NCBI RefSeq assembly: GCF_002160865.1
Contig: NZ_NFLJ01000020.1
Coordinates: forward strand, 1-52,038
Direction of reading: 5' to 3'
DNA length: 52,038 nucleotides
DNA from: Massiliimicrobium timonense
Lineage (GTDB): Bacteria > Bacillota_I > Bacilli_A > Erysipelotrichales > Coprobacillaceae
Below are positions 31,075 to 48,610 of the stretch, in pieces (the first letter of the stretch is position 1; every line of letters starts with the position of its first letter). Position numbers and translations under genes: made by a program. The notes beneath the pieces are model-generated. The model saw only the letters and a list, made by a program, of their open reading frames with translations. It had not been told where the DNA came from and made no database searches.

Positions 31075-31086
31075 TCCTTGTTGTTT
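31057..31086. terminator. Terminator between the small ORF and the FolT-type gene
   Basis: AAACAACAGGA (31057-31067) pairs with TCCTTGTTGTTT (31075-31086) with one bulged base, then TATTTTT. It works on the plus strand and probably also ends the minus-strand transporter gene, whose stop it overlaps. Confidence 0.75.
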
Positions 31087-31900
31087 ATTTTTCTAAGTGT
31101 ACCCATATTCTTCTTAAAAATGGGATTAAACTATATCCAATAAATATTTCAATAGGCAATATAGCACATTCTTTCACTACACGAATACATAAAGAAATCG
31201 TCCATGGGATATGATACATCATATCCAGCCATAATGGTGTTAAACATAATGTCACAACAATTTCTGTCAGTACTACACACAAAATCCAAGTTGAAAAAGT
31301 TTTGGCTTCTTGTGTATTAATCTTACGTTTTAAAAAGAGAATGATCACAACAAAAAGAAGTGATAATAAAAGACATAGTGAAATTAATGTTATTTTATCC
31401 TGTAGTTTTAATGAATAAGCCGTATCTGAAATACTAACGACATCTAACTGACTGATATATAAAGAAGCCCCTACTCCTAATATAACAATCAAACCAATCA
31501 CAATCATTAAAACTTTTGTTGGACTCACTCTTTTAAAGTGAACATGAACCATTGAAGGAATGACACTGACTAAAATTGTTCCTAGTGTAAATCCAAAGAA
31601 AGGAAATCCTGTGGGGACAATAATCAATCCTATCACATCACTACATAGCCCAACCAGAAAAGCATAGCTTGGAGATAAAAAATATCCTGCTAACATCAAG
31701 GGAATATATTCAAATCCAATCTTTAAACTCTCTGTTCCAAATAAAGGAATCATAATCGCTAATCTTTTACAAATAGCTGTCAAAATAATGAAAATAGCGG
31801 CTATCACTAATTTCATCACATTTCCTTTTTCAAAAGGATAAAATTTAAAAACATAAAAACCTAGTGCAATAATAATCATTGCAATTACAACTTGTTCCAT
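31085..31900 (-). CDS. ECF transporter S component, folate family (FolT-like)
   Basis: A 271-residue membrane protein that would bind a vitamin, probably folate, and dock on a shared ECF energizing module not found here. The FolT pattern is 'LKIGFEYIPLMLAGYFLSPSYAFLVGLCSD', 'PFFGFTLGTIL' and a C-terminal 'TPLWLDMMY' with 'IRVVKECAILPIEIFIGY'. Usual FolT is about 170-180 residues. The extra length sits at the N-terminus and in a middle insertion (about 125-205) that adds hydrophobic segments. The start has no clear ribosome binding site and is preceded by a transposon remnant, so translation may be weak. Confidence 0.8.
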   Translation of the reverse strand: MEQVVIAMIIIALGFYVFKFYPFEKGNVMKLVIAAIFIILTAICKRLAIMIPLFGTESLKIGFEYIPLMLAGYFLSPSYAFLVGLCSDVIGLIIVPTGFPFFGFTLGTILVSVIPSMVHVHFKRVSPTKVLMIVIGLIVILGVGASLYISQLDVVSISDTAYSLKLQDKITLISLCLLLSLLFVVIILFLKRKINTQEAKTFSTWILCVVLTEIVVTLCLTPLWLDMMYHIPWTISLCIRVVKECAILPIEIFIGYSLIPFLRRIWVHLEK

Positions 31901-31904
31901 AACA

Positions 31905-32013
31905 TCATGCTACATATAACAAATTTTCCTGCTTCATCCTCATTTCTAGTCCACAGGCGTTAATTCCGATTATATTTATATAACCGTACATGCTTTGCTA
32001 CTAACGTAGACTC
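31905..32013 (-). mobile_element. IS200/IS605-type tnpB 3' remnant with omega-RNA-like fold
   Basis: On the minus strand a 28-codon frame (31991-31905) ends 'INACGLEMRMKQENLLYVA'. 'ACG' followed by 'MKQE' is the typical C-terminal end of TnpB proteins. The surrounding bases fold: 32006-32012 pairs with 31948-31954, and 31979-31985 with 31968-31974. The DNA ends with the GAAGCAGG-like stretch seen at the 3' end of tnpB genes and their guide RNAs. No catalytic part of TnpB and no TnpA is present, so this is a decayed end piece or a solo guide RNA. Confidence 0.5.
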
Positions 32014-32048
32014 CTCCTTCTTTTTTTATTTTTTATATCATACATGAT

Positions 32049-33443
32049 TTATTCATTATTGACAATATTTCTTTCTTCACCTTTTAAAAATGAAAGTATA
32101 TTTTCATAAACTTCATTGACACAACGTTGTCTAGCTTCAATAGACCCCCAAGCAATATGTGGTGTTAAAATCACTTTATCCATATCCTGTATAGAATAAA
32201 TCACATCATCTTCTAATAATGGTTCATGTTCAAAAACATCTAAACCAACCCCAGCCAGATGTCCTTCATTTAAAACTTTTACCAAAGCCTTTTCTTCAAT
32301 AATACCACCACGTCCAACATTAATTAAATAAGCTGTTTTTTTCATCTTTCTTAAAGCTTCTTCATCAAATAAATAATGTGTCTGTTCATTTAAAGGCGCA
32401 TGAATAGTTATAATATCAGATGTCTTTAATAACGTTTCAAAATCAACTTGCTGGTAATCACTTGTTGCATTTTTGCCACTTGTTGAATAATATTGAACTT
32501 TTGCCCCCATCGCCTTAGCAATACCAGCCACTGCCCTTCCAATATGTCCTAATCCAACAATACCCCAAGTCATAGATGACACATCATGAAAAACATCATC
32601 AAAATAACTAAAACGTTCACTATGACAATATGCTTTAGACTTCACAAAATGATCATAGGCAACATTCTTTTCAATAAGATGCATTAATAATGCTAAAGTA
32701 TGTTGAGCAACTGTTGTCGTTGAATAATCTTTAACATTAGCCACCTTGATTCCATGATCATGACAATATTTCAAATCAACATTATTTGTTCCTGTGGCAA
32801 ATAAACAAATCAGTTTCAAATGCTTTAATCCTTCTAAAACATCTTGATTCATAACATTTTTATTTGTAATGACAATATCAGCCCCTAAGATACGTCCTCT
32901 TATTTCAGATTGTTTTGTATCTTCATACATTGTCACTTGCCCAAGTGAACAAAGTTTAGATAAATCAACATCTTTGCCAACAGAAGCACTCTGTAAAACA
33001 ACAATATGAACATCTTCCTGACGAAGTAAAGTCATAAAATCTTCTAATGATACATCTTGAAATAATTTTCCCAGATGAATGGCTTCATTTAAATCTAAGA
33101 TATCTGTAGATAAAGCCACACCACACATTGCATTATCCACAATTTCAAATTTTAAAATATGTTGGATCATCGCAACTCCTAATGCTTTAGAAGTCATTGT
33201 TTTATCATCATCAATTGTTTCTAAAATATGTTGTTTAAAATGTTTTTCCTGTTGTTCACATTGATAAATACATTCTTGAAGTGATGTATATGATAAAATC
33301 TGATCTCTGACCAAATCATGATAAAGAAGTGGCAAAACAACATCATAAAGTTCCAATGGTACTGGTTTTCCATAACCTTTTGTAAAATTATACAGCAATG
33401 CTGTTCCTAATTCTTCATCTTTCATTCTATCTACTAGTTTCAT
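32049..33443 (-). CDS. D-2-hydroxyacid dehydrogenase with extra N-terminal ABC-3C middle-component-like domain
   Basis: A 464-residue protein. Residues about 146-460 are a complete NAD-dependent D-2-hydroxyacid dehydrogenase: 'FATGTNNVDL', nucleotide loop 'GIVGLGHIGRAVA' (GxGxxG from 297), active Arg in 'INVGRGGII' (R378), Glu in 'LDVFEHEP' and His in 'LTPHIAWG' (H429). The first 140 residues do not belong to that enzyme. Their pattern 'LGTALLYNFTKGYGKPVPLELYDVVLPLLYHDLVRDQILSYTS' (in part) and later 'AIHLGKLFQDVSLEDFMTLL' resembles the middle component of three-component ABC systems (DUF6521-like). The start at 33443 follows GGAGG by eight bases and overlaps the metallophosphoesterase gene by 17 bp. 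Confidence 0.8.
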   Translation of the reverse strand: MKLVDRMKDEELGTALLYNFTKGYGKPVPLELYDVVLPLLYHDLVRDQILSYTSLQECIYQCEQQEKHFKQHILETIDDDKTMTSKALGVAMIQHILKFEIVDNAMCGVALSTDILDLNEAIHLGKLFQDVSLEDFMTLLRQEDVHIVVLQSASVGKDVDLSKLCSLGQVTMYEDTKQSEIRGRILGADIVITNKNVMNQDVLEGLKHLKLICLFATGTNNVDLKYCHDHGIKVANVKDYSTTTVAQHTLALLMHLIEKNVAYDHFVKSKAYCHSERFSYFDDVFHDVSSMTWGIVGLGHIGRAVAGIAKAMGAKVQYYSTSGKNATSDYQQVDFETLLKTSDIITIHAPLNEQTHYLFDEEALRKMKKTAYLINVGRGGIIEEKALVKVLNEGHLAGVGLDVFEHEPLLEDDVIYSIQDMDKVILTPHIAWGSIEARQRCVNEVYENILSFLKGEERNIVNNE

Positions 33444-34896
33444 CTTCATTTCCTCCCTCAAATAAATAAACTTCAACTCGCTGTCTTTCTGCTTTCGCTT
33501 TATCATCATAAAAAATCATACATAGTTTCATTTTTTTCTCTTGAATATCATATTTCATAATATTATATGAAATATAACGACTACGACTTTCTTTTAAACC
33601 ACCTGTAGCACTACCGGCACCAATATAATAACAGCCATCTACCTCTCTAAAAAAAGGTAAATGCTTATGTCCATGAAATACATAATGTATGTTTCGTTTC
33701 TGTAACCATTCAATCAATAACGGTGCATCTACTAAAACCTTTGATGTTTCTACAATTCGATTAATAAATGTTTTTTCATGCCATTTGGTTTTAATAAATT
33801 GAGCCTTATCAATAGGATAAACATGATGATGCAACAAAACCAATAAAGTATAGTCTTCCAAATGATCAATTGCTGATAACTCATCATCAATTTCCATTAA
33901 TTGTCTTTTTCCTATTTTCCCTCTAGCAAGATTTCCTTCACTGGTTGTATCCATTTTAATAATAATAATTTTTTCTTTTTCCAGAACCTTAATATTTTCA
34001 CCTAACAAATAAGCAATGACTTTACTTTTTTGATTTCTAGCAAAGTTAAATCCATGCACAATCACATCATGATTTCCCAATATAAAAGTCACATTCGCTT
34101 TATATCGTTTCTTTAAACTATTCATAAAATCATTGGCTAAATACATATTTTTACGATTAGGAGATTCCATTAAATCGCCTGTAATTAAAATATTCACAGG
34201 CCATAATGAAGGAAGTCTTGGCATCAATTCATCTAATGAAGCATAGAGTCTTGCCAATCCTTTTTGACGTTTATTTTTACCTAAATGCAGATCACTTAAC
34301 TGAATAAAATAAGCGTCATTTTGATAGTGTTGATATATATCAAACAAAGGTAATTGCTGTTCAATAGCCTTTTTGAGTTGAGTGAAATCTTCGATTCGTT
34401 TTATAGGAACAAAAACCATCTTCTGTTCTTGAAAAATCAAACATCCCGGCCATGAATCCACATGATTTAAAGCACAGAAGAAAGCAGGAAAAGGATCGAA
34501 AAATGATAAATTGTCTTTTTGAAAATGAGTAGAAATCGCATAAAAATAGATGTTTTCATATGTAGGAAAAGATGTCATTTTCAAATTATTTTCATCAAAT
34601 CCGGGAACATATACAATATGAATTGCTTTTTCATAAGTTTGTGCGATTGTTTCCATTTCTACTGAAAAAGGAATATGTAAAATATGATCAACATCTTCAA
34701 CTTTCATTAAATAAGATAATAAGGCATATTCATCCTTTGTAATAGATTCTAAAACAGGGCATGAAATATGACGTTGATTTAACCATTGAATAAAACTTTG
34801 AAGATAGTCATAGGACATGAGAAAATCACGCATATATGCCAATTCATTACGATAAACAATATTAAAAAAGGTATTGATAAAGAAGATTTCATTCAC
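33427..34896 (-). CDS. Metallophosphoesterase with unknown N-terminal domain
   Basis: A 489-residue protein. The calcineurin-like domain runs from about 195 to 440 with all metal motifs: 'IQLSDLHLG', 'LITGDLMES', 'LGNHDVIVHG', 'LLHHHVYP' and 'FHGHKHLPF'. About 190 residues before it ('HILHIPFSVEMETIAQTYEKAIHI...') belong to no family I recognise. The start is probably GTG at 34896, with GAGGTG nine bases upstream; a GTG 12 bases earlier lies in that site. It has its own promoter (TATAAT at 34925-34920) and is translated with the dehydrogenase fusion. Substrate unknown: nucleic acid, nucleotide or phosphoprotein are all possible. Confidence 0.82.
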   Translation of the reverse strand: MNEIFFINTFFNIVYRNELAYMRDFLMSYDYLQSFIQWLNQRHISCPVLESITKDEYALLSYLMKVEDVDHILHIPFSVEMETIAQTYEKAIHIVYVPGFDENNLKMTSFPTYENIYFYAISTHFQKDNLSFFDPFPAFFCALNHVDSWPGCLIFQEQKMVFVPIKRIEDFTQLKKAIEQQLPLFDIYQHYQNDAYFIQLSDLHLGKNKRQKGLARLYASLDELMPRLPSLWPVNILITGDLMESPNRKNMYLANDFMNSLKKRYKANVTFILGNHDVIVHGFNFARNQKSKVIAYLLGENIKVLEKEKIIIIKMDTTSEGNLARGKIGKRQLMEIDDELSAIDHLEDYTLLVLLHHHVYPIDKAQFIKTKWHEKTFINRIVETSKVLVDAPLLIEWLQKRNIHYVFHGHKHLPFFREVDGCYYIGAGSATGGLKESRSRYISYNIMKYDIQEKKMKLCMIFYDDKAKAERQRVEVYLFEGGNEDETSR

Positions 34897-36394: not shown

Positions 36395-36625
36395 AAAAAG
36401 TCGTTCCTCAAAAGGAACGACTATATCGCGGTACCATCCTTATTTGTATTCTTAACAAATACACCCTTTTTAAATAACGCCTCTAAGCGGGATAGTCTAC
36501 TTTTATTTCTCCTATCCGGTTCATTGAGTGTTCCATATCATTCCCATTTCTTTTGCTTTCACCATCCAAAAGTCGCTCTAAAACTTATGAATGATATGTT
36601 CTCAAATCATTACCTGTATATTTAT
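36395..36625 (-). promoter_or_regulatory. T-box riboswitch leader of asnS
   Basis: On the minus strand the T-box proper reads ATGGTACCGCG (36437-36427), with the terminator hairpin AGTCGTTCC/GGAACGACT (36399-36407 with 36414-36422) and T-run right after. Stem I is closed by ATATCATTC/GAATGATAT. Near its 3' side the specifier AAC (36532-36530) matches asparagine, in agreement with the gene. Uncharged tRNA-Asn would prevent termination. A promoter TTGAAA-17-TAATAA lies just upstream. Confidence 0.93.
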
Positions 36626-41015: not shown

Positions 41016-41147
41016 AAAAAAAGACTTTTCTACCCACGTAAAAAAGTCACAATTTCATTATTTGCACTCTCTACGCTGGCATTACCCAGTTCAGATCATA
41101 AGGGATAAGGTTTCCACCTTTCTCAGCAAAATGCACCCCCGGCCTTT
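41016..41147 (-). promoter_or_regulatory. TPP riboswitch with terminator, controlling thiT
   Basis: On the minus strand the aptamer (about 41143-41062) shows GGGGGTGC, CTGAGA, then CCCTTATGATCTGAACTGG, GTAATGCCAGC and GAGAGTGC: the complete thi-box. The expression hairpin GACTTTT/AAAAGTC (41023-41029 with 41042-41048) with seven Ts follows before the thiT start. High TPP would stop transcription. Confidence 0.95.
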
Positions 41148-41259
41148 TTCTATTATAATCCTTTTTAGAAAAAATACAAATATTTTTGATAAAACATTTT
41201 TTTCTAGTTTTTTTATAAATAAATGTTATAATAAAAGGGAATTAAGGGAGGATAAGAAA

Positions 41260-48436: not shown

Positions 48437-48466
48437 AGCAGTGTTGATGGAGTTTTTTAAAAATGA

Positions 48467-48610
48467 AGCGCCTGGACTTTTTTCAAAGTTGACGAGGACC
48501 AGATTTATCGAAAGATTCGGCGGATGATCTGGAGGTATGATGCTACCTGAACGATGAGCAAAAATAATGAGTGATCATTAAACAAATATCATCAGGCATC
48601 ACTTCATCAT
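48467..48610 (+). ncRNA. glmS ribozyme: glmS ribozyme-riboswitch
   Basis: The self-cleaving GlcN6P-sensing RNA is easy to read: AGCGCCTGGAC with cleavage between A48467 and G48468, then AAGTTGACGAGGACCAG, a small P3 hairpin, ATTCGGCGGATGATCTGGAGGT, and TGCTACCTGAACGATGAGCAA, followed by the P4 region. All core segments known from Bacillus are present. Cleavage leads to mRNA decay when GlcN6P is plentiful. The 3' limit is approximate. Confidence 0.95.

Follow-up and report, generated by a model that had tools for sequence, protein, structure and literature searches.

The minus-strand segment 31901-32019 of the 52,038-nucleotide stretch of Massiliimicrobium timonense DNA analysed here (the window) serves as the mRNA leader for a gene of the folT family, which encodes an ECF transporter S component, and it is likely to derive from the guide-RNA scaffold of an IS607 TnpB system, domesticated as a cis-acting leader with a split ribosome-binding site whose core is looped out between the Shine-Dalgarno sequence (SD) and the AUG. 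The comparative sequence evidence pointing to this origin comprises homology, location, a distribution within a single clade, covariation, a constant effective SD-AUG spacing, and the absence of THF riboswitches.

The leader is flanked by a 2-hydroxyacid dehydrogenase gene (32049-33509) and the folT-family gene (31085-31900), both on the minus strand. The latter is a complete ORF of 271 aa (TIGR04518, E 3.7e-41), and the element is hence a leader and not, as an earlier note on this DNA had it, a replacement of the 5' region of the transporter gene. The SD AAGGAGGAG (32011-32019, minus strand), which contains AGGAG, a target-adjacent motif of IS607 TnpB (PMC11061315), is followed by the putative domesticated element as delimited by comparative searches (31901-32010, minus strand), which reaches to the AUG; in the window no SD adjoins the folT start codon. 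A weak promoter-like site just upstream (TTGTCA-17-TATGAT, 32037-32065, minus strand), with 10/12 matches, a quality of which chance alone yields 1.7 sites in the region, would place the element at the start of the folT transcript. The dehydrogenase is of the D-2-hydroxyacid type, and its N-terminal region weakly matches ABC-three-component Middle Component 3 (PF20131, E 3.3e-5). Elsewhere in the window a T-box leader (36410-36619, minus strand), a TPP riboswitch (41050-41150, minus strand), and a glmS ribozyme (48456-48603, plus strand) exceed their Rfam thresholds.

To our knowledge, the domestication of TnpB has so far been seen in its proteins (Cas12, TldR); in the present case it is the RNA part of the system alone that appears to have been turned into a host gene-control element. 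A literature search with preprints and most subscription journals outside its coverage found no description of a TnpB guide RNA turned leader. The TldR proteins, which are nuclease-dead TnpB repressors, are comparable in that a TnpB system was domesticated for the control of host genes (PMC13418256), whereas at folT only the RNA survives, without a protein, and apparently acts in cis on its own mRNA. The case allows the path that led from a mobile element to a structured leader RNA to be traced, and makes testable both the emergence of riboswitch-like RNAs from guide RNAs and the use of an extensive fold within a ribosome-binding site as a translational switch.

Homology to the IS607 guide RNA and the insertion site

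No Rfam family matches the leader segment above threshold, and the only sensible match in a relaxed search is RAGATH-18 (31926-31957, minus strand; 25.8 bits, E 0.018), which falls below the gathering score of that family (RF03064, 44.9 bits); homology to a riboswitch class, which the earlier note regarded as grounds for abandoning a guide-RNA origin, was found in neither the strict nor the relaxed search. In TnpB systems of the IS607 family, RAGATH-18 forms the guide-RNA (reRNA) core (PMC11061315). A covariance model built from the leader elements only (R1) detects most of the IS607 reRNAs in related genomes at 34-44 bits with E values from 4e-12 to 6e-9 (roughly 1e-8 at the weak end), along with weaker matches to a few divergent IS607 guide RNAs; the true RAGATH-18 copies of these relatives have tnpA and tnpB upstream. 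The homology spans about 58 positions and takes in the P2 hairpin, a GGAAUU(U/A)ACG joint, and the P3 hairpin. In the window the conserved core with its 5' flank occupies 31928-31992 (minus strand; 78.4 bits with R1), within which P2 (CGGU...AUCG, 31967-31986) is defined by fold and covariation and P3 (CCUGU/GCAGG, 31928-31957) has a k-turn-like internal loop (GGA/GAUGA) in common with RAGATH-18. The leader further resembles the RAGATH-18 reRNA (RF03064/ISFba1) in the upstream AGGAG and in the right end GAGUAGCA: four of the five leaders from a second family of the order (f2) still terminate in GAGTAGCA, the right end of IS607 copies, and the GUAGCA of the window corresponds to the IS607 right end ...GAGTAGCAG. 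This agreement in sequence and structure points to a common ancestry of the leader core and the RAGATH-18 reRNA. Unlike the latter, the leader has neither tnpA and tnpB nor a conserved guide, is fixed before folT, and has a short P3 loop and no clear PK2.

The earlier note had thus rightly recognized a TnpB-guide-RNA-like sequence, although the relative is an IS607 and not an IS200/IS605 element. It had also read the minus strand as the 3' end of TnpB: a frame encoding GINACGLEMRMKQE does exist, but in the IS607 copies examined (e.g., L097) the stop of tnpB immediately precedes the guide RNA, and the lengths of several homologues break the frame, so the element is conserved as an RNA and not as a peptide, and a TnpB coding remnant is rejected.

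The insertion site itself suggests how the element may have arrived. The target-adjacent motif of IS607 TnpB is AGGAG or GAGGG (PMC11061315). Multiple IS607 copies in two genomes (G161, G018) contain GGAGG in the left junction and have the right end ...TTTTGAGTAGCAG, and ten of fifteen IS607 right ends are followed within 3-15 nt by the start codon of an ORF of at least 60 codons; judged by sequence, these ORFs include an ABC transporter and a response regulator. IS607 elements in the relatives frequently sit between a Shine-Dalgarno sequence and a start codon, as is to be expected when the target motif is an SD core. Genomes of f2 that encode a long FolT without the element have an SD directly before the ATG at the folC-folT junction (e.g., AAGGAAGGGATATCGATG), and the element-bearing leaders show the order SD, element, GUAGCA, about ten bases, and ATG, the empty and filled sites being compared across different species. 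We propose that, in an ancestor within the Erysipelotrichales, an IS607 element, whose target motif AGGAG is an SD core, inserted right behind the folT SD and before the start codon, and that tnpA and tnpB were lost while the guide-RNA scaffold and right end would have been retained and domesticated. The agreement of target motif and SD core suggests a route by which such elements would often land between SD and AUG. Two IS607 copies in G161 (L088 and L091) are deleted internally with both ends kept, so that in these bacteria tnpA/tnpB sequence does get lost while the guide RNA stays.

Fold and spacing of the leader

For a structure made up of P2, P3, and an inner stem of two pairs, 97% of the cells are paired across 34 distinct cores and seven of the 12 pairs show changes on both sides; none of 500 shuffles was as good on any of five measures. 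The variants of P3 include CCUGU/GCAGG, CCCGU/GCGGG, CCCAU/GUGGG, CCUAG/CUAGG, CUUAU/GUAGG, and UCUGU/ACAGA, and between genera with FolT proteins only about 35-45% identical the core loops (GGAAUUAACG, GGA/GAUGA) hardly change. In 38 folT-element genomes, the 5' leaders of a single gene family share a conserved structured RNA with covariation. The paired arms described in the earlier note accordingly hold up beyond chance on comparative evidence, but not on that of the single sequence, for which the segment gives a z of -1.03, within chance; single-sequence folding was set aside as proof, the values overall being modest at -1.0 to -2.0.

When the segment is folded by itself, P2 and P3 are enclosed in the lowest-energy structure by P0, which pairs CUAC (32006-32009) with the GUAG (31910-31913) of the conserved GUAGCA, and by P1, which pairs AGCAAA (31994-31999) with UUUGUU (31918-31923), all on the minus strand. 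The inner four pairs of P0 hardly vary, and G010 has a different closing helix of 9 bp with no CUAC/GUAG. In an arm-swap test that ignores relatedness and, sharing a one-clade history, contains few independent events, the 5' and 3' arms of the same leader gave a mean of -12.2 kcal/mol as against -9.37 ± 0.44 kcal/mol for swapped arms, with 0 of 10,000 permutations as good. The raw separation of SD and AUG is 102-243 nt across the leaders; with P0 closed, and computed over all leaders that have it, the distance is 13-16 nt in all but one (18 nt), including those with three modules described below.

The distant SD, the intervening fold, and the constant effective spacing together mark the leader as a predicted split ribosome-binding site, in which closed P0/P1 would loop out the core, made up of P2 and the k-turn-like P3, and put the SD at a working distance from the AUG. 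Comparable fold-bridged sites are those of phage T4 genes 25 and 38, where an intervening RNA fold brings SD and AUG effectively closer together (PMC3014915); the folT bridge differs from these in spanning about 100-240 nt, in being transposon-derived, and in its conservation in two bacterial families. In G096 the upstream SD is lost and an SD instead adjoins the AUG, so the bridging arrangement is not universal.

Distribution and descent

A DNA search recovered the segment from all five genomes of the genus and from 34 of the 43 genomes of the window's family (f1), one of these (G007) being a short chance match; the covariance model scores the same remaining 33 of 43 highly, and in all 33 the element stands directly before folT. 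Across the 316 genomes of the order, R1 also finds folT leaders in the f2 genomes G068, G200, G063, G090, and G096, each again directly before folT, and most of the other higher-scoring f2 matches that were fetched adjoin tnpB. This conservation before folT, together with the compensatory changes, points to a cis-acting leader and agrees with the domestication that the earlier note had considered. In genus g8 the core occurs as three tandem modules before folT; in the leaders L049, L050, L051, L054, L055, and L134 the three P2-P3 modules lie within one closing helix, at a raw SD-AUG distance of about 240 nt. At G001:C1:2835341-2836152 folT is seemingly split in two, with an in-frame TAG, and the leader element is intact.

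A midpoint-rooted tree of FolT unites the proteins with the element, from the two families alike, in a single group (support 96/95), with the proteins lacking the element outside it and the FolTs associated with THF riboswitches further out. Given this single supported clade, one insertion followed by vertical descent would fit best; an early transfer between the families would be compatible as well. Full IS607 copies related to the element exist in relatives, the lack of which the earlier note would have taken as a refutation; the window's genome has no second copy of the segment and no other RAGATH-18 match. A recent hop was rejected, copies being found neither in this genome nor in phages or plasmids.

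Regulation and competing readings

Since translation would depend on the fold, and since the element stands where relatives have a THF riboswitch, the leader probably regulates folT in addition to bridging its ribosome-binding site. The THF-I riboswitch (RF01831), present in 159 of the 316 genomes of the order, is likewise a structured leader of folT-family genes in these bacteria. It occurs in none of the 38 folT-element genomes, an absence that again shares a one-clade history and represents few independent events, and RF01831 has no match in the window. The eight f1 genomes that carry it all lack the folT element, and in at least six f1 genomes a short FolT follows it immediately. Genus g44 contains both leaders, the element in G096 and the riboswitch in G094, G076, G296, and G297. 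This mutual exclusion suggests similar roles for the two leaders, and sensing of a folate-type ligand is plausible. In our estimate it is a serious possibility, somewhat short of even, that a pocket for THF or a related compound arose in the scaffold and that the latter took the place of the THF-I riboswitch before folT. The gene order folC-element-folT in several genomes, the tandem modules, as in some riboswitches, and possible alternative pairings of the arms are in keeping with such a pocket; the exclusion, however, tracks FolT type and clade, so that few independent events underlie it. The element has no sequence or Rfam match to THF-I, which belongs to the other FolT type.

With the folT start included, RNAfold returns an alternative fold about 7 kcal/mol better than a native-like one (-27.7 as against -20.3). 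There the core is paired to the 5' arm, and a hairpin takes in the start codon; such a fold could represent an off state or an artefact of the energy model, as k-turn and tertiary contacts fall outside RNAfold scoring. Local 3' hairpins competing with P0/P1 recur, but are mostly no better than shuffles, and no terminator was found, both of which count against a folate-class riboswitch. A fuller proposal, in our view less likely than not, is that a nuclease-less transposon guide-RNA scaffold was exapted as a new class of metabolite-sensing folT leader, opening and closing a fold between SD and start codon and replacing the THF riboswitch in this lineage.

The constant effective spacing and the coevolving closing helix need no more than a passive scar, that is, tolerated IS607 debris whose fold keeps SD and AUG close under selection for translation only, with neither regulation nor ligand. 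Such a scar, which we regard as rather unlikely, sits poorly with the near-invariance of the core loops across divergent genera, and with the three tandem modules of one genus, which go beyond the needs of a bridge.

As to a guide function, the earlier note correctly held the nuclease to be gone: there is no tnpB at the locus, and no match to the TnpB zinc-ribbon (PF07282) over the cut-off in the window's genome, so a guide RNA for a resident TnpB is rejected. The note's further suggestion of a TnpB encoded elsewhere, widened here to guidance in trans of a TnpB or a nuclease-dead TnpB (TldR), would accord with the scaffold homology to the IS607 reRNA and with the TnpB genes that some element-bearing genomes do carry. 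It is nevertheless very improbable, as the zinc-ribbon match is absent from 23 of the 33 element-bearing f1 genomes (the window's and 22 of the 32 others), the sequence behind GUAGCA, i.e., behind the scaffold end where the guide would lie, is not conserved, and the P2 loop has no clear complement in the 3' end, the longest being 2 nt in the window and 1-4 nt in other leaders, a poorly separating comparison with IS607 controls at 2-5 nt. In ISFba1, mutation of the corresponding PK2 impaired the formation of the complex (PMC11061315). The leader is thus probably not a working guide RNA.

Convergence of an ordinary orphan riboswitch on a k-turn hairpin, which the sub-threshold Rfam score and the recurrence of k-turns in unrelated RNAs (PMC8191799) might recommend, is hardly tenable and in the main refuted by the extent of the homology through P2, joint, and P3, the right end GAGUAGCA in f2, the insertion-site geometry, and the scoring of true reRNAs at E 6e-9 or better by a leader-only model.

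The preferred reading of the folT element as a domesticated IS607 scaffold concerns this leader; a few solo guide-RNA-like matches occur apart from it. L203 and L212 (both G274) and L208 (G041:C56) have no tnpB match within about 2 kb, L208 being a second copy in a genome that carries the folT element too. Another, L200 (G093:C278, about locus position 2071-2130; 42.7 bits), with no tnpB detected nearby, lies upstream of an ORF whose start resembles trigger factor by eye, and may be a second leader-like relic.
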